From Owenweeksia hongkongensis DSM 17368 (lineage in GTDB: Bacteria > Bacteroidota > Bacteroidia > Flavobacteriales > Schleiferiaceae), in assembly GCA_945907425.1 (NCBI GenBank), contig CAMDTE010000006.1:1-39915 (forward strand): a stretch of 39,915 nucleotides of DNA, given 5' to 3'. The position numbers and the translations under genes are program-made. Positions 31,768-39,915 of the stretch are shown here, one piece after another (positions within the stretch are counted from its first letter, which is position 1; each line of letters begins with the position of its first letter). The notes below the pieces were generated by a model that was not told the origin of the DNA, did no database searches, and was given only the letters and a program-made list of their open reading frames with translations.

Positions 31768-33402
31768 ATGCACCTCTTCCGCATACTCTTTGTGCTTGCC
31801 GTTCTGCTCATCGGTGTAGGTTGTGATTCCTCTGATGAAAGGGTAGATTCCCGTACTGTTTTCCGATACAACGAAGCCACGGGAATACCTACGCTAGATC
31901 CTGCCTTTGCTCGTGAGCAAGCGACAATATGGGCTGTAAAACATGTATTCAGCACACTGGTAGAGTTGGACTCAACACTGACTCCTCAACCATTGGTAGC
32001 GGCTTCTTGGAAACAGGAAGGGTTGCAATGGACCTTCTTCTTGCGCCAAGAGGTGTGGTTCCATCCCGGACCGGGGTTGCCAAAGGGTAGAAAATTGGTG
32101 GCTTCTGACGTGGTGTATTCGTACCGACGATTGGCAGATCCCGCCTTAGCGGCTCCCGGCGCTTGGGTATTGGAAAATGTAGATACTGTGTATGCACTTT
32201 CCGATTCCATCGTTGTAGTGAAAGTAAAAAAAGCCGGCCCTTCCCTTTTGGGGTTTTTAGCTATGGCCTATTGTTCTCTTGTCCCCAAAGAATCCGTGGA
32301 CGCCTTGGGAAATCAATTTGGTCAGCATCCCGTGGGAACCGGTCCCTTTGTCTTCAAACGATGGTTAACGGGAGAGAAATTGGTATTTCGCAAAAACAAC
32401 CGGTATTTTGAACGCGATGCAGAGGGGAAGTCATTGCCCTACCTGGAAGCCGTTTCTATTCGGTTTGTTCCGGATAGACAAGCCGCTTTTTTGTCTTATT
32501 TGAAAGGCGATTTTGATGTGGTCAATGGCTTGGATGGATCGTATAAGGATCAATTGTTTACCACCGCGGGCCAACTTCAACCCGGATTGGAAAAAAACCA
32601 CCGACTCCAAAAAGCGCCTTTTTTGAATACGGAATACTTGGCCATTGTGCAAGACAAGCCCAATCCCTTTTATCTACGAGATGTAAGGGTTCGAAAGGCC
32701 CTTTCCTTTGCCATTGATAGACCGGCCTTGGTTCGACATCTGAAAAACAACATAGGAATTCCTGCACACGGGGCCATGATTCCGGCGGGGTTAGAAGGAT
32801 TTCGCTCAGAAAAGGAATGGAAAAATCCATGGGTTCTTCGCAAAGATTCTGCCGTATATTTTCTTCGGGAAGTGGGCTTGGTAGACGCACAGGGTCAGTG
32901 GAAGAAGAAGTATCCCCCCCTTGTTTTGAGCACAGCAGAAACAGGCCGCGATGTGTGTGAGTTTATTCAGTCACAGTGGCAATCCGTGGGAGTTCCTTGC
33001 CGAATCGAGGTGTTGCCGGCAGCGGCCTTTAGAGAGTCAAAATCACAGGCAGGGCTAGGAATTTTTAAAGGTTCCTGGATTGCAGATTACCCAGATCCAG
33101 AAAATTACCTGAGCTTGTTTGATTCTCGACGGTGGACCCCAGCGGGTCCGAACTATACACGAACGGCTTCCGCAGTGTACGATTCCTGGCTCGATGCCTC
33201 CCTACGCGCTTCTACCCGTGAAGAACGCTTGCCTTATTTGTATGCGATGGAAGAGTGGGTGCACTCTCAGGTCGTCGTCATTCCACTGTGGTATGACGAG
33301 TCTGTGCGTGTGTTGAGAAAGAATATTCGCGGAGTGCCCAAACATCCTTTATTTTACCTTGACCTGCGCCGAGCTTACAAGGAGTCTCCCTCGATTCCGT
33401 AA
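31768..33402 (+). CDS. Peptide-type ABC transporter substrate-binding lipoprotein (SBP_bac_5 family)
   Basis: The 544-residue product has a lipoprotein signal (MHLFRILFVLAVLLIGVGC, lipidated cysteine at 19, followed by DSSDE). The body is of the OppA/DppA family: NEATGIPTLDPAFAREQATIWAVKHVFSTLVELD, then ALSFAIDRPALVRH, GAMIPAGLEGF and IADYPDPENYLSLF. It should bind peptides or a similar solute at the membrane. No permease or ATPase gene is beside it, so its transporter must lie elsewhere. I start at 31768; an upstream in-frame start lies inside mtaB and would destroy the signal peptide. The 3' end overlaps the convergent gene by 28 bases. Confidence 0.9.
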   Translation: MHLFRILFVLAVLLIGVGCDSSDERVDSRTVFRYNEATGIPTLDPAFAREQATIWAVKHVFSTLVELDSTLTPQPLVAASWKQEGLQWTFFLRQEVWFHPGPGLPKGRKLVASDVVYSYRRLADPALAAPGAWVLENVDTVYALSDSIVVVKVKKAGPSLLGFLAMAYCSLVPKESVDALGNQFGQHPVGTGPFVFKRWLTGEKLVFRKNNRYFERDAEGKSLPYLEAVSIRFVPDRQAAFLSYLKGDFDVVNGLDGSYKDQLFTTAGQLQPGLEKNHRLQKAPFLNTEYLAIVQDKPNPFYLRDVRVRKALSFAIDRPALVRHLKNNIGIPAHGAMIPAGLEGFRSEKEWKNPWVLRKDSAVYFLREVGLVDAQGQWKKKYPPLVLSTAETGRDVCEFIQSQWQSVGVPCRIEVLPAAAFRESKSQAGLGIFKGSWIADYPDPENYLSLFDSRRWTPAGPNYTRTASAVYDSWLDASLRASTREERLPYLYAMEEWVHSQVVVIPLWYDESVRVLRKNIRGVPKHPLFYLDLRRAYKESPSIP

Positions 33403-34439
33403 TCTACAAAAATGGGGTGATGATCGCTCCATCGCTGCTTGAAGGTGGTGTATTTCACAGCAACCCATGGTTTTTCAGCGAATACATGGTCAATACGAAG
33501 GGGCAACAGGGCCAATTTGGCGTATGAATTACCAAACCCTTTGCCTGCTTGCAAAAAAGCGTCTTCTGCTAAGCGAGAGGACTCACCGTAGACAAAGGAT
33601 GTAGGGGTGTCATTGAAGTCTCCCAGGAGGACTACGGGATGTTTGCTGCGTTGAGCGAATGCAATCACTTCGCCCATTTGTCGGGCCCGGATATATCCAG
33701 AACGGGCTAATCTGTACGCAATATCTCGTCCGTCCTTTATCCATTGATGCGATGCCGTAGAGTCGATGGGACTCAGTGTGGTGTATTTCTCGGGAACCAG
33801 AGACGTGGTGATCAAATGCACATTGATCAATCGAACGGTATCTCCTGCCGGAAGGGCTGCATCGGCCCATAAAAACCCACGATGCCCCGGATGACTTTCT
33901 GAAAAGGTATAAAACCCATGACGACCATAGGGTTTTTTACTGAAAAAGGCCAAGCCATAACCACCTTCTTCTTCCAATGCATACGGCCAGATGGTTTTTA
34001 AGCGCGGCGACAATTCGGTACGGTGCTCTTGCAATGCAATCAGCAAAGGGTCAGCGTTTTCTAAGCAAGAGAACATTCCTTCCTGTGTGGAGTTGAGCTG
34101 GGTCCATGTAGCATTTCTCCATCCATGAACGTTCCAAGTAGCGATGCGCCACAAAGGAGACTCGTTTCCTTCTCCGTGAAAAGTGATGACCCCTTTGTAT
34201 TGCGGATACATCACCACTAAGACCAAAACGCTTAAAAAGGCCCATGCTTTGAGTTGTGTCATCCAATACAACAGAAATCCCCCGTGCAATAACACAAAAA
34301 CAGGAGCTACGAGGCCCGCGAATCCCATAATAGACCCTCCCGTGGGCGCTACGTAAAAAGCGATGATACTAGGGATCGTCAGAAGTGTGGTGACCACGTG
34401 CCCTATAGCCATCAATGCGTGCAGTCCTTTGGGTTTCAT
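33375..34439 (-). CDS. Membrane-anchored endonuclease/exonuclease/phosphatase family protein
   Basis: The 354-residue protein has three N-terminal membrane spans (about 8-30, 37-60, 64-78), then a C-terminal endonuclease/exonuclease/phosphatase domain (about 95-354). Catalytic motifs are visible: Asn103 in IATWNVHG, Glu138 in LIALQEH, the INVHL segment, LLGDFNDTP and the terminal SDHHPIFVDY. The domain is probably outside the cytoplasm, and could act on nucleic acids or phosphodiesters of lipids or sugars; the substrate is not clear. It starts with an ATGA overlap on the rhomboid gene and is last of a five-gene run. Similar proteins next to rhomboids are frequent in Bacteroidota. Confidence 0.88.
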   Translation of the reverse strand: MKPKGLHALMAIGHVVTTLLTIPSIIAFYVAPTGGSIMGFAGLVAPVFVLLHGGFLLYWMTQLKAWAFLSVLVLVVMYPQYKGVITFHGEGNESPLWRIATWNVHGWRNATWTQLNSTQEGMFSCLENADPLLIALQEHRTELSPRLKTIWPYALEEEGGYGLAFFSKKPYGRHGFYTFSESHPGHRGFLWADAALPAGDTVRLINVHLITTSLVPEKYTTLSPIDSTASHQWIKDGRDIAYRLARSGYIRARQMGEVIAFAQRSKHPVVLLGDFNDTPTSFVYGESSRLAEDAFLQAGKGFGNSYAKLALLPLRIDHVFAEKPWVAVKYTTFKQRWSDHHPIFVDYGIEGDSL

Positions 34440-35161
34440 GCGCCGAGTTTGTCTAAAAAAGCTCTTTCATCGGGCTCTAAACTATCCAACCCAGTGGATT
34501 TCACCTTGTCTAAAACGGCATTCAACCGTGCGTTTGGATCGCGCAGTCCGTGCAAAACGGAGCGAGGCCTAGGTTTGGAGGAAAACAACGGCGTGGAAGG
34601 CCAAAAAGTACCACAGATTAATCCGGCCAGATGAGGCCATGCATTGCGGTGGTCTGCTACCGCGTAGACCCCTTCCATCAAAAACACGGCAGCCAACAAG
34701 ACCCACAACGGGAGGAAGCCAAAAAGGAATTTGACGCGGTGGCTCGGTTGCCTTTTCACGAGATGTGCAAAGACAGCCAAAACACCCGCTGAGCTTCCAA
34801 TCAGTGCGAAATCATCGGTTTTCCAAAACGAAGAAATCCAAAACAGCAAGCCTCCAGAGAGCAATCCTGCACAGAAGAGAATTCCGAATGATTTTTGATT
34901 ATGAACTACAGAACTCCAGGTACGGCCAATAAATTCCAGCAAAAGCACATTCCAAAAAACATGTACAAAATGAGCATGAAACCAACCGTAGCTGAGTAGC
35001 TTGGCGTAGTCTTGCGGAACCTTAGGAGCGCTGGTCAGAGCCATTGCTTGCGTTAAATCAATACCCACATAGGTGAGCAGCCACTGAACAATGAAGATCG
35101 CCAGTAAAATGACTACCAACGCATCGGAGGGTGTGTTAAGATGTTGGCGAATCCAGGTCAT
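34436..35161 (-). CDS. Rhomboid family intramembrane serine protease, with C-terminal extension
   Basis: This 241-residue protein has about six membrane spans and the rhomboid catalytic set: His67-x3-Asn71 (HVFWN, oxyanion side), the serine motif GSSAG (122-126, nucleophile Ser124), and His167 in WPHLAG. After the last span comes a cytoplasmic tail of about 55 residues ending in a helical module (ARLNAVLDKVKSTGLDSLEPDERAFLDKL) seen in Bacteroidota rhomboids. I prefer the ATG at 35161 (MTWIRQHLNTPSD), which leaves 14 bases after the upstream stop; an ATG at 35203 would overlap it by 28 bases. It is the second of two tandem rhomboid genes. Confidence 0.88.
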   Translation of the reverse strand: MTWIRQHLNTPSDALVVILLAIFIVQWLLTYVGIDLTQAMALTSAPKVPQDYAKLLSYGWFHAHFVHVFWNVLLLEFIGRTWSSVVHNQKSFGILFCAGLLSGGLLFWISSFWKTDDFALIGSSAGVLAVFAHLVKRQPSHRVKFLFGFLPLWVLLAAVFLMEGVYAVADHRNAWPHLAGLICGTFWPSTPLFSSKPRPRSVLHGLRDPNARLNAVLDKVKSTGLDSLEPDERAFLDKLGA

Positions 35162-35175
35162 CAAGGAACGCGAGC

Positions 35176-35853
35176 TTAAAAGCGAAATGCATTTTTTCGC
35201 CAATATCGAATCAAGAGGAACCCAAAGAGCATACCTCCCAAATGGGCGAAATGGGCCACCGCACTATTGCTTTTTGTAATTCCCAATACCAACTCCAACA
35301 CGCCGTATATAATCACAAAGTACTTGGCTTTGATGGGCAACAAAAAATACACATAAATTTCTTGGTTGGGAAAGGTCATGCCATAGGCCAATAACAGCCC
35401 AAAAATAGCTCCCGAAGCCCCTACCACTGGGGAATAGAGGAGTTGCCCAAGCGCATTCGCGGAAAAACCCCCTGAGAGTGCGCCTGCTTCCGTTAAAGCA
35501 TGGTATTGAAAGGCATTTACGCCCATATGCAAAAGAGCTGCCCCGAGACCCGTGGCAAAATAATAGGTTAAAAACCGTTGAGGTCCCCAGTAATTTTCCA
35601 TAGGGGAGCCAAACATCCACAAGGCCAACATATTGAAAAGCAGGTGTTCAAAATTTCCGTGCATGAACATGTGCGTCACCAATTGATAGGGTCGGAAATA
35701 CTCGGAATAAGGGAAAAACAAGCCCAATTCGTGGATCAAATCGATGCCCATTTGTTGGAATACAACGGTGGCAAAAAATAGTAACCCGTTGATTATGAGT
35801 AAATTTTTTACAACGATTGGTAAAAACGAAAATCGAGAAGGGCGATAAACCAT
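35176..35853 (-). CDS. Rhomboid family intramembrane serine protease
   Basis: The 225-residue membrane protein has the full catalytic set: HGNFEHLLFNM with His70 and Asn74, the serine motif GASGA (145-149, nucleophile Ser147) and His204 in HFAHLGGML. Six spans are predicted and there is no extra domain. Its sequence is clearly different from the neighbouring rhomboid (GASGA against GSSAG, and no C-terminal tail), so the pair is an old duplication or two lineages rather than a recent copy. It begins one base after the mutL stop (TAG) and is probably cotranscribed with mutL. Substrates are unknown. Confidence 0.92.
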   Translation of the reverse strand: MVYRPSRFSFLPIVVKNLLIINGLLFFATVVFQQMGIDLIHELGLFFPYSEYFRPYQLVTHMFMHGNFEHLLFNMLALWMFGSPMENYWGPQRFLTYYFATGLGAALLHMGVNAFQYHALTEAGALSGGFSANALGQLLYSPVVGASGAIFGLLLAYGMTFPNQEIYVYFLLPIKAKYFVIIYGVLELVLGITKSNSAVAHFAHLGGMLFGFLLIRYWRKNAFRF

Positions 35854-35854
35854 A

Positions 35855-37600
35855 CTAGGAGAATTGTTGTTGTAATTGCGTTGTGTTCAATTGCAATGCC
35901 ACCGTTGCGCCGTCTACGTCTTGCCAGGGGTGATGGCATTGTTGCCATTGCGTGACCAAAGCTACACATTCCTCCGGCCGAAGTGAAGTAGAAGAACGAG
36001 CAACCGCTATTTGGGCTAGTCTCCAGGCCGGTCCAATCAGTGCGGCCCCGGGTTTGTTATCCGGGTCTTGCAGCCAGGTCTCAAGAGCCAATGCGGCATC
36101 TTCTGGCGATAACACGACAGGAATTCCGTGCAATAGCAAATGATCCGCTGTAAATGTCCCATCAAAGCCCATGGCGGTTAGTATAGCCCACTGCTCTTCG
36201 GCAGAACTCCGTAACGCTGGGGAAAGTTCTATTTCCACGGGGAAAAGCAATTGTTGACTGGCGGTTCCGTGTCCCTCTAGGGCCCGCAAAAACCGTTCAA
36301 AAGCGATGACGCGTTGAGCCCGTTTCGTGTGAATGACCACCAAACCCTCCGGTTGCACTGTCGCAATAAAGCCAGCGGGCAAACCCGTGCACCAGGGCGT
36401 GTCCATCTGTTCGTTTTGGACTTCTGTGTGCGCAAACAAAGGATCCAAGGGAAATGCCTCGGTCTTCTGTGCAGCATTTGCGCGCTGGTTTTCAAATAAA
36501 AAAGGATTAAAGTCTGGGTTGACTGTAATCTGAGGCGGTCTAGGCAGATACCCAGCTTCCTGTGGGATGGGATGAAAAGAGGTCATCGCTTCAAAATCCA
36601 GTCCGGGCGCCACTTGGTATTGGCCTAACGCATGTTTGACAGCGGATCGAACCACCGCATACACGGCCCGTTCGTCGTCAAATTTAATTTCTGTCTTGGC
36701 GGGATGCACATTTACATCAATGCGTGCTGGATCAATGGCCAAGAAAAGCACATAAGCGGGGTGACTCCCCTCTGCAATCAGACCCTCGAACGCATCCACT
36801 ACCGCGCGATGGAGATAAGCACTTCGAACCATTCGCTTATTTACGAATAGGTGTTGGTCACCTCTTGTTTTCCGGGCATGTTCTGGTCTGAAAATAAAAC
36901 CATGCATTTGTACGATATCTGTTGCCTCTTGAACCGGCACGATGCGATCATTGGATTTCTTGCCCAAAACATGGAGCAATCGAGATCGATCGTTTTCTGC
37001 CTCCAAGTGAAATTCTTCCCGGCCATTGTGGGTAATGCTCCATCCAATGTGCGGATGAGCTAGGGCTAATCCTGTAAATACATCCAATACAGCACGAAAT
37101 TCAACGGGATCGCTCTTGAGGAATTGCCTACGAGCAGGGACGTTGAAAAATAGGTTTCGAATAGAGAGGTAAGTACCCATAGGGGCTGGCTTTTTTTCCG
37201 TCTTCGTTGCGGTTCCTCCTTCTAAAAAGAGATGCGTCCCCAGAGGCTCATCGGCTGTACGCGTCAGGCACTCCACATGAGAAATCGCAGCAATGGAGGC
37301 CAGCGCTTCCCCTCGAAACCCCATGGTACGGAGCGCGAACAGGTCATCCACTGTGCGCAATTTACTGGTGGCATGCCGCTCAAAGGCTAAAGGAACATCC
37401 TGTGAAGGAATGCCATTCCCGTTGTCGGTGATGGAAATCAAGGTTCTTCCGCCGTCTTGTAATACAAAAGAAATTCTCGAGGCGCCGGCATCGATGGCAT
37501 TTTCAGCCAATTCTTTTACGGCGGAGGCAGGGCGTTGCACAACCTCTCCAGCGGCTATTTGGTTGGCGATGTGTGGAGGGAGCTGTTGAATAGTGTTCAC
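35855..37600 (-). CDS. mutL: DNA mismatch repair protein MutL with altered C-terminal nuclease motif
   Basis: MutL links mismatch recognition by MutS to strand removal. The 581-residue protein has a complete N-terminal GHKL ATPase: QIAAGEVVQRPASAVKELAENAIDAGA, DNGNGIP (59-65), GFRGEAL (94-100) and VNVHPAKTEIKF. In the C-terminal domain the usual DQHAxxExxxxE metal-binding motif should appear where residues 424-435 read HTKRAQRVIAFE; only the final glutamate is kept. The later C-terminal cysteine/PNG element also looks lost (CHHPWQDVDGATV). I start at GTG 37600, which overlaps the upstream stop as GTGA; the frame extends eight codons further to an ATG-like start inside that gene. Nuclease loss is an inference. 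Confidence 0.92.
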   Translation of the reverse strand: MNTIQQLPPHIANQIAAGEVVQRPASAVKELAENAIDAGASRISFVLQDGGRTLISITDNGNGIPSQDVPLAFERHATSKLRTVDDLFALRTMGFRGEALASIAAISHVECLTRTADEPLGTHLFLEGGTATKTEKKPAPMGTYLSIRNLFFNVPARRQFLKSDPVEFRAVLDVFTGLALAHPHIGWSITHNGREEFHLEAENDRSRLLHVLGKKSNDRIVPVQEATDIVQMHGFIFRPEHARKTRGDQHLFVNKRMVRSAYLHRAVVDAFEGLIAEGSHPAYVLFLAIDPARIDVNVHPAKTEIKFDDERAVYAVVRSAVKHALGQYQVAPGLDFEAMTSFHPIPQEAGYLPRPPQITVNPDFNPFLFENQRANAAQKTEAFPLDPLFAHTEVQNEQMDTPWCTGLPAGFIATVQPEGLVVIHTKRAQRVIAFERFLRALEGHGTASQQLLFPVEIELSPALRSSAEEQWAILTAMGFDGTFTADHLLLHGIPVVLSPEDAALALETWLQDPDNKPGAALIGPAWRLAQIAVARSSTSLRPEECVALVTQWQQCHHPWQDVDGATVALQLNTTQLQQQFS

Positions 37601-37854
37601 GAAAAAAAAGTCAAATACGCCCACACCGCTCCGGCGGCGACCAGCAATCTATACAGCACTTTATTGGTGTTCAAAGCACTCGATCTGTGCTGACTCCACA
37701 CCGATCGGATGCGTTTCCTTATCTCATCCCCTTCCTTCCCCTCTCCGTTTTTGTAATTCTCTAAGCGGGCTTTCCTTTCGTCGAAAAGCCTCGGTTTGTA
37801 CTGAAATCCACGGGGTTTACGGACTTTAAACAAGCGTGAGGAAAAAATTGCCAT
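37597..37854 (-). CDS. Small basic protein with one C-terminal membrane span, upstream of mutL
   Basis: No named function is known to me. The 85-residue product begins MAIFSSRLFKVRKPRGFQY and contains the KPRxFDERKARLENYK pattern seen in small Bacteroidota proteins of this kind, followed by a charged helix and a membrane span (about residues 66-84) ending at the stop. The start is the ATG at 37854; an in-frame ATG at 37917 would place the promoter-like box inside the gene. It overlaps mutL by four bases (GTGA) and heads the run mutL, two rhomboids and the phosphatase-family gene. Confidence 0.7.
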   Translation of the reverse strand: MAIFSSRLFKVRKPRGFQYKPRLFDERKARLENYKNGEGKEGDEIRKRIRSVWSQHRSSALNTNKVLYRLLVAAGAVWAYLTFFS

Positions 37855-37874
37855 CTGTTTTGCTTGATTTTCCT

Positions 37875-37882
37875 CAAAGATA
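37875..37882 (-). promoter_or_regulatory. Bacteroidota -7 box (TATCTTTG) before the mutL operon
   Basis: The minus strand reads TATCTTTG, a full match to TAnnTTTG, 20 bases before the ATG at 37854. It supports 37854 as the start and would drive the five-gene run through mutL. A -33 TTG is not evident. Confidence 0.45.
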
Positions 37883-37896
37883 GGGTGATTTTGTCC

Positions 37897-37904
37897 TACT
37901 TTTC
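37897..37904 (+). promoter_or_regulatory. Possible -7 box (TACTTTTC) before the GH3 lipoprotein
   Basis: TACTTTTC differs from TAnnTTTG only in the last base and lies three bases before the ATG at 37908. With the minus-strand box at 37875-37882 it makes a divergent promoter region of about 50 bases. Confidence 0.35.
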
Positions 37905-37907
37905 GGT

Positions 37908-39915
37908 ATGAATTCATTGCGTTCTTTGGGCTTTGTTTGTGCCCTTTCCTTTTTTATAGGATCATGCCAAGCCCAGCCGGCACCCACTCATTTACCGTAC
38001 GATACGCCGGAGGCGACGCATTGGGCGGATTCCGTGTTCTCTACCTTAACAGCACGGCAGAAATTAGGTCAACTGTTCATGGTGGCGGCGTATTCTAACA
38101 AAACGCCACAACACGAAGCCGATTTGCAGTCCCTGAGTGCAAACTATGGCTTGGGGGGTGTAATTTTTATGCAAGGCGGCCCCGTTCGCCAGGCGAGAAT
38201 GACACAGGCCCTGCAAGAAAAAGCGAAAATCCCTTTGTGGATTGCTATGGATGCCGAATGGGATCTGGGCATGCGCTTGGACAGTACATTCAAATTGCCT
38301 TGGCCAATGACCGTTGGCGCAACGAATGACTCTGCGCTTTCCTATGCCTACGGGGCGACCATAGCCAAGCACTGCCGCAGGCTAGGGGTGCACATCAATT
38401 TTGGCCCTGTTTTGGATCTCAATACAAACCCGGACAATCCGATCATCAATGCGCGCTCATTTGGCGAAAACAGAGAGCGGGCGACTCGGTTGGCTCATGC
38501 CTATTTTAGAGGGCTACAGGACAACCATGTTTTATCGAACGCTAAACATTTTCCGGGCCATGGAGATACCGATCAGGATTCCCATAAAACGTTGCCAACG
38601 GTATCTCGCTCAAAAAGTGGTTTGAATGAAATAGAATTGTGGCCCTACAAGAAATTGCTTCCCAAAGGAATGGGGAGCGTAATGGCCGCTCACTTGAACG
38701 TGCCGGCGCTGGATCCGGGAGTCCCCACATCGCTATCGCACAAAGTAATTCATACCCTCTTGCGGGAAGAGTTGAATTACCAAGGTTTGGTTTTTACAGA
38801 TGCCCTCAACATGAAAGGCGTTTCTGAATCCAACGCTCCAGGAATGTTAGAAGAACGGGCATTGTTGGCGGGCAATGATGTTCTTTTATTTTCCCAGGAC
38901 ATGCCGCTGGCCGTCGAGCATTTAGAAAAAGCCATCGCAGAGGGTCGCATCAAACAATCGATAGTTGACGCGGCGGTGCGTCGCATTTTAAGAGCAAAAT
39001 ACTGGCTTTTGCACAACGTAAACTTGATTCCAGAGAGAGGAAACCTAGTAGAGGATCTCAACGATTCCAACAGTGCGGTACTGCACGCGCGCATTTTGCA
39101 GCGCGCGTTGACCGTTGTATCTGCAAAAAATAATTTCAACACCTCCATGGGCCAATGGACGAATGCCTTGGTAGTGGCTGTGGGGACAGACATTCCAACG
39201 GCATTGAAAGCGAGTTGGTCTGCCTCCGAAGTGGTGGTGCTGTCTACCCCCGACGTTGCGGCTTGGAATCAGGTACTGTCGAAAGCCAAAGGAGCCCCAG
39301 TAGTTATTGCCCATTTCACTTCCAATCTCACCCCGTGGAAATCCTCTTCTTTCCCCGCGTCATTGCCAGAGTGGGCGCAGAAAGTGGGACAAACATCCCC
39401 CACGATGGTTGTGCAATTTGGAAACCCCTATGCACTGAGGAAAGCACCGGTGGAAGGAGTTGAGGCGGTCCTAGTGGCCTACCAAAACCATCCAGTGGCC
39501 GTTGAGAATTTTGGTTCATTCCTTCGCGGAGAGGTATCTGCCCAGGGAATCTTACCGGTGACCGTAGGATCTAAGGCGCCGGCAGGGTTTTCTCATCCCG
39601 TAGCGGGAAGGGGCTCTTTGGTGGATGTTTCCTCTGTGGAAATGGCGGGATTTACAGGAGATTTGGAATCTAAAATTGCCGCTATTGCCATGGAGGGTAT
39701 TCACAGCAAGGCATACCCTGGATGCCAAGTAGTAGTGGTGCGAAAGGGTCAAGTTGCTTTGAATGTAGCGTACGGTGCGTTGGATTACACTGAAAATGCG
39801 CGCGCTGTTCTACCTTCCGATTATTACGACATTGCCTCTCTCAGTAAAATCATAGGCAGTATTCCGGCCCTTTTGGCATTGGATGCTCGAGGCCTTTTTT
39901 CGCCTACTGAGTCTA
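37908..39915 (+). CDS. GH3 beta-N-acetylglucosaminidase-like lipoprotein fused to a serine beta-lactamase-like domain (cut by window end)
   Basis: The frame is open from the ATG at 37908 to the last base, giving at least 669 residues. A lipoprotein signal ends in IGSC (Cys20). Domain 1 (about 30-360) is a GH3 hydrolase of the NagZ type: MDAEWDLGMRL, the KHFPGHGDTDQDSHKTLP loop (from Lys213, with the acid/base His region) and VFTDALNMKGV, where Asp298 should be the nucleophile. A GH3 C-terminal region follows (about 380-580). Domain 2 begins near residue 600 and shows SLSK at 644-647, the SxxK active site of class C beta-lactamase/esterase-like enzymes. The rest is outside the window. A role in cell-wall sugar turnover in the envelope is inferred. 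Confidence 0.9.
   Translation, partial: MNSLRSLGFVCALSFFIGSCQAQPAPTHLPYDTPEATHWADSVFSTLTARQKLGQLFMVAAYSNKTPQHEADLQSLSANYGLGGVIFMQGGPVRQARMTQALQEKAKIPLWIAMDAEWDLGMRLDSTFKLPWPMTVGATNDSALSYAYGATIAKHCRRLGVHINFGPVLDLNTNPDNPIINARSFGENRERATRLAHAYFRGLQDNHVLSNAKHFPGHGDTDQDSHKTLPTVSRSKSGLNEIELWPYKKLLPKGMGSVMAAHLNVPALDPGVPTSLSHKVIHTLLREELNYQGLVFTDALNMKGVSESNAPGMLEERALLAGNDVLLFSQDMPLAVEHLEKAIAEGRIKQSIVDAAVRRILRAKYWLLHNVNLIPERGNLVEDLNDSNSAVLHARILQRALTVVSAKNNFNTSMGQWTNALVVAVGTDIPTALKASWSASEVVVLSTPDVAAWNQVLSKAKGAPVVIAHFTSNLTPWKSSSFPASLPEWAQKVGQTSPTMVVQFGNPYALRKAPVEGVEAVLVAYQNHPVAVENFGSFLRGEVSAQGILPVTVGSKAPAGFSHPVAGRGSLVDVSSVEMAGFTGDLESKIAAIAMEGIHSKAYPGCQVVVVRKGQVALNVAYGALDYTENARAVLPSDYYDIASLSKIIGSIPALLALDARGLFSPTES

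Follow-up and report, generated by a model that had tools for sequence, protein, structure and literature searches.

Textbooks divide the bacteria with MutS and MutL into users of MutH and species whose MutL nicks; outside the MutH-using gammaproteobacteria, MutL normally nicks the DNA itself through the motif DQHAxxExxxxE. In E. coli, MutH nicks hemimethylated GATC, and MutL has no C-terminal metal site. From structures and mutants, zinc binding has been assigned to the three motifs of MutL endonucleases (DQHAxxExxxxE, ACR, and CPHGRP), with the Arg of CPHGRP also serving in catalysis; the three zinc motifs are absent from MutLs that have no nuclease activity (PMC10366529).

The mutL gene studied here is situated in the window, i.e., the whole stretch of 39,915 nucleotides that was analysed (Owenweeksia hongkongensis DSM 17368; GenBank assembly GCA_945907425.1, contig CAMDTE010000006.1). 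With E. coli MutL, its product shares the MutL fold, the ATPase, the QxLLxP clamp motif, and the missing C-terminal metal site, but no counterpart of E. coli MutH was found in this genome, and the C-terminal domain is nearer in sequence to nuclease-type MutLs (e.g., that of B. subtilis) than to that of E. coli. With the MutL endonucleases of B. subtilis, N. gonorrhoeae, and A. aeolicus it has the domain order, the C-terminal fold, the clamp motif, and an alignable motif II helix in common, but differs from them in every zinc ligand and in the catalytic Arg. The eukaryotic non-catalytic subunits MLH1 and yeast Mlh2 are likewise MutL homologues without the endonuclease motif; however, they act beside a catalytic partner (PMS2/Pms1), whereas the protein described here is the sole MutL found and would form a homodimer.

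Organization of mutL and residues at the nicking centre

The open reading frame (35855-37624, minus strand) comprises 589 aa, and the GTG at 37600 is a start that suits the MutL alignment better than the opening of the frame at 37624. The following features were assigned, with residues numbered along the complete open reading frame:

35855 to 37600, minus strand: mutL, likely start GTG 37600, single copy in the genome
36620 to 37591, minus strand: N-terminal GHKL ATPase and S5 domain (residues 12-335; phmmer against the E. coli MutL N-terminal domain, 1e-73)
35858 to 36412, minus strand: C-terminal dimerisation domain (residues 405-589; AlphaFold2 and Foldseek)
36296 to 36331, minus strand: HTKRAQRVIAFE, replacing DQHAxxExxxxE (residues 432-443; zinc-binding His and Glu and the critical Asp replaced)
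36239 to 36256, minus strand: beta-clamp binding motif QQLLFP, retained (residues 457-462; conservation of Q457 1.00, F461 0.98, P462 0.98)
36008 to 36016, minus strand: AQI at the position of the ACR motif (residues 537-539; zinc-binding Cys replaced by Gln538)
35903 to 35920, minus strand: DVDGAT at the position of the CPHGRP motif (residues 569-574; zinc-binding Cys and His and the catalytic Arg replaced)

The product matches the MutL family model TIGR00585 with 459 bits (cut-off 180), as well as both DNA_mis_repair and MutL_C of Pfam. The GHKL ATPase domain exhibits the usual motifs ENAIDAG, DNGNGI, and GFRGEAL, which, together with the phmmer match, bears out the sequence-only reading that the N-terminal ATPase is complete. 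The C-terminal dimerisation domain is recognised by PF08676 (56.8 bits), and its AlphaFold2 model (mean pLDDT 92.7) has the C-terminal domains of B. subtilis, N. gonorrhoeae, and E. coli MutL as top Foldseek matches. Judged by these features, the protein is a true member of the MutL family, but it fails the sequence tests for a MutL endonuclease: neither DQHAxxExxxxE nor the zinc motifs ACR and CPHGRP are present.

At the first of these motifs, H432-E443 aligns without gaps to DQHAAQERIKYE of B. subtilis MutL; a profile from the window protein and 46 relatives matches B. subtilis MutL (3gab) at 5e-31 and is ungapped across the motif. Of the six motif letters, five are replaced, namely D, Q, H, A, and the first E, such that the last Glu alone remains. 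The stretch, which becomes residues 424-435 when counted from GTG 37600, falls within 36295-36352, for which the loss of Asp, Gln, His, and the first Glu had been claimed before, and the gap-free alignment confirms this. The positions of ACR and CPHGRP were read from the alignment with B. subtilis and N. gonorrhoeae MutL. A changed Cys/PNG element near the C-terminus had also been pointed out; the change as such holds, with DVDGAT in place of CPHGRP, but the Cys of that element (C563) lies off the zinc position, six residues upstream of the zinc-binding Cys of CPHGRP. In the sister genome of the same genus (G006), HLPRVQQVLAYE is found at the motif position. Because this genome is eroded at the same place, chance or a sequencing error is unlikely as cause of the changed motif, and errors of frame or assembly were likewise rejected.

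An intact metal site elsewhere in the C-terminal domain was also looked for in the alignment, and no conserved set of Asp, Glu, His, or Cys residues was found; since no such column reaches 85% conservation within the own family, no replacement site is visible. With the catalytic Arg and the whole set of zinc ligands replaced, the proposal of a non-nicking MutL is supported by the sequence, and the window MutL has presumably lost nicking.

The clamp motif QxxLFP is near-invariant in Bacteroidia: computed over 218 sequences, the most conserved C-terminal positions include Q457, F461, and P462, together with A436, G486, and P502. MutL would be expected to contact the beta clamp through this motif, as via QxLLxP in E. 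coli MutSLH. In closely related pairs with eroded motifs, dN/dS of the C-terminal domain is mostly 0.05-0.25, i.e., far below 1 and a few times the value of the ATPase domain; purifying selection is measurable in these relatives only, the comparison of window and sister being saturated at synonymous sites. Since fold, clamp motif, and purifying selection are kept, the C-terminal domain seems to be used for something other than metal catalysis.

Distribution of the loss among Bacteroidia and other classes

The five zinc ligands were scored on one alignment, in which some sequences within the sets duplicate each other; the class of the sampled genomes is taken to be Bacteroidia from named relatives. 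None of the 68 other MutLs of the window's family keeps all five ligands, nor does any of 80 Flavobacteriales MutLs (mostly named records, e.g., Flavobacterium psychrophilum, L054). Class-wide, at least three ligands are lost in 69 of 70 sampled sequences, the exception being L236 (G124); L277 and L278, from the same family as L236, are also intact, like L276. Of 49 sequences from the remaining classes of the phylum, 38 keep all five ligands, and most of the rest form one cluster.

The tree was built from the N-terminal domain only, leaving out the columns of the trait itself, and the count of changes on it leaves out the rows L277 and L278. In this tree, the class stands apart from the others with 97% SH-aLRT, and the losers outside the class mostly fall in a second clade, which includes one intact member. 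Because the two sets of losers are separated on this tree, the site was lost one or more times near the base of Bacteroidia, with a repeated or parallel loss in another class.

The second losing cluster (L190, L196, L198, L254, L263, L265, and L266, plus L184, L185, and L189) reads DQNAAHER and ARRSAI, and the intact member L201 is nested inside it. One family of Bacteroidia (f39: L276, L277, L278, L308, L309) possesses a complete MutL nuclease site and no rhomboid neighbours of the kind described below; its intact site may mark an early branch or a transferred gene. In another genome of the window's family, a second, divergent MutL (L153, G019:C66) with DQHAAHKRILFE and CPHGRP, i.e., a largely canonical site, is found on a separate contig and may be a contamination.

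Many Bacteroidia still read [D/H]QQxAHERILYE, with the zinc ligands mostly gone and Asp, Gln, and Glu partly kept, and many of those outside Flavobacteriales keep Asp and the first Glu of the motif; in these, a weak unorthodox site is conceivable. The window MutL keeps one of the six motif letters. Within its family, smaller genomes are more eroded (genus averages, kinship ignored: Spearman 0.50, p 0.04, n = 17 genera). The loss is older than this genome, the window representing a late, further-eroded stage. The sequence-only reading had proposed a non-nicking MutL for this organism; the loss itself stands, but its scope was drawn too narrowly, nearly all sampled Bacteroidia being alike, and the rule from which that reading started, that MutL nicks outside the MutH-using gammaproteobacteria, seems not to hold for a class in which the loss is nearly general. 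No report of the site loss in Bacteroidia was found in the open-licence literature of PubMed Central.

Partner genes and neighbours of mutL

The MutS sequence, which spans two overlapping contigs, looks complete and carries both the mismatch-reading motif GDFYE and the C-terminal clamp motif QLSFI; among 197 genomes of the class, 188 have MutS domain I. RNase HII is present, and the assembly contains no second MutL. The assembly is about 91% complete, such that a partner nuclease outside it is possible. Within it, MutH (PF02976) gave no match, the E. coli control being positive, and EndoMS/NucS none either, with seven control genomes positive. The earlier statement that the adjacent genes offer no MutH thus extends to the whole of this assembly. 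That mismatch repair may be reduced, as had also been suggested, is not supported, given the complete MutS, the kept clamp motif, and the purifying selection in relatives; the interpretation as a whole retains its non-nicking MutL and missing MutH, but neither its restriction to one organism nor the reduced repair.

Two further nick sources were considered and rejected. A MutS2-like protein (L319, G000:C2) has the ATPase domain, but an Smr nuclease domain was not matched in it, a weak SH3-like match being all that appeared. In the class, MutH-family matches turn up sporadically, in 10 of 197 genomes. The strongest of them are open reading frames of about 450-510 aa, and several contain a pair of MutH-like stretches; judged solely by their length and the duplicated matches, they resemble Sau3AI-type restriction enzymes and were not accepted as true MutH.

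Downstream of mutL, the following genes are situated:

35176 to 35853, minus strand: rhomboid protease, directly downstream of mutL (Pfam PF01694; conserved neighbour)
34436 to 35203, minus strand: second rhomboid protease (Pfam; order conserved)
33375 to 34439, minus strand: membrane-anchored endonuclease/exonuclease/phosphatase (EEP) protein (PF03372)

The adjacency of mutL and rhomboid is found in all 30 class loci and in none of 30 loci of other classes. The order mutL-rhomboid-rhomboid-EEP exists in most Flavobacteriales loci with enough flank and in several other families of Bacteroidia, and it was not seen near mutL in the 30 loci of other classes. Operon order and site loss coincide strikingly, the intact-site family f39 being without rhomboid neighbours. 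A role of the first rhomboid protease (35176-35853) in DNA repair is unlikely. Directly upstream of mutL (37597-37917, minus strand), a small basic protein is encoded that probably ends in a membrane helix; it has no Pfam or NCBIfam match and is conserved beside mutL in many genomes of the family.

Possible course of repair and alternative explanations

Quite probably, the nuclease-dead MutL acts as a clamp-bound matchmaker in working repair, with entry from existing nicks or from another nuclease. MutS on a mismatch would load the MutL dimer, which would close on ATP and dock onto the beta clamp that the replication fork leaves behind; the clamp-docked MutL would then license excision by helicase and exonuclease, in the manner of E. 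coli MutL. The entry nick would not be made by MutL. Its simplest source would be strand ends already in the newborn strand, i.e., Okazaki ends and RNase HII cuts at ribonucleotides, the alternative source being a nuclease yet to be identified. The loss of the site dates back to about the base of Bacteroidia, with a further-eroded version in this genome.

The second of these sources can be set out as an explanation of its own, which is a sub-case of the matchmaker reading and differs only in where the nick comes from: a nuclease yet to be identified, recruited by clamp-bound MutL and playing the part of MutH, would have taken over nicking in Bacteroidia. A loss throughout the class in the sampled genomes, with MutS and MutL nevertheless kept and the C-terminal domain still under selection, fits this well, as does the failure to find MutH proper and NucS in this genome; however, no candidate was found, for the MutH-family matches of the class are sporadic and like restriction enzymes, and the MutS2 has no recognised Smr domain. 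It is a serious possibility that nevertheless falls short of being probable. The EEP protein, encoded by the sole nuclease-fold gene of the mutL operon, could instead be the nicking partner, and the operon would then have arisen together with the loss of the site, in accordance with the conserved gene order, the absence of mutL-rhomboid adjacency from the sampled loci of other classes, and the missing rhomboid neighbours in the one intact-site family. But 73 of 80 relatives have three membrane helices at the N-terminus, and the positive-inside charge predicts a catalytic domain outside the cytoplasm in 57 of these 73 (topology by a simple hydropathy rule, not a trained predictor), such that it is unlikely to nick chromosomal DNA; furthermore, at least two lost-site loci of the class (L310, L311) have no rhomboid or EEP match. 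The EEP protein was rejected as nickase on its predicted topology, and of all explanations this one is the most improbable.

Decay of mismatch repair in a streamlined lineage, with MutL on its way out, would account for the stronger erosion of the motif in the small genomes of the family and for a C-terminal domain only 42% identical to that of the sister. It is nonetheless unlikely, since a decaying gene would hardly show the low dN/dS of the eroded relatives, all of the 56 well-assembled genomes of the family contain a match to this MutL, MutS and the clamp motifs are intact, and Bacteroidia with large genomes show the same primary loss. Very unlikely, too, is a catalytic metal site made of other residues in the C-terminal domain: Asp, Gln, and the first Glu do survive in the motif of some Bacteroidia, and Cys563 reaches 93-99% conservation beyond the window's family, but several intact MutLs also have a Cys there, the positions reaching 85% at class level are scattered and do not include the zinc Cys and His positions, and the own family has no such position at all.

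Returning to the clamp-bound matchmaker, Bacteroidia include dominant gut and marine bacteria and, by sequence, are neither MutH users nor MutL nickers. There is a fair case that their mismatch repair runs without MutH or a nicking MutL, by means of fork-borne ends reached via the clamp or of an undiscovered nickase, i.e., in a third way. If this is true, either such a nickase exists or clamp-bound matchmaking on existing strand ends suffices in nature, which would directly concern the recognition of the new strand, a matter still unsettled. How a major class of bacteria starts mismatch repair thereby becomes a testable question.
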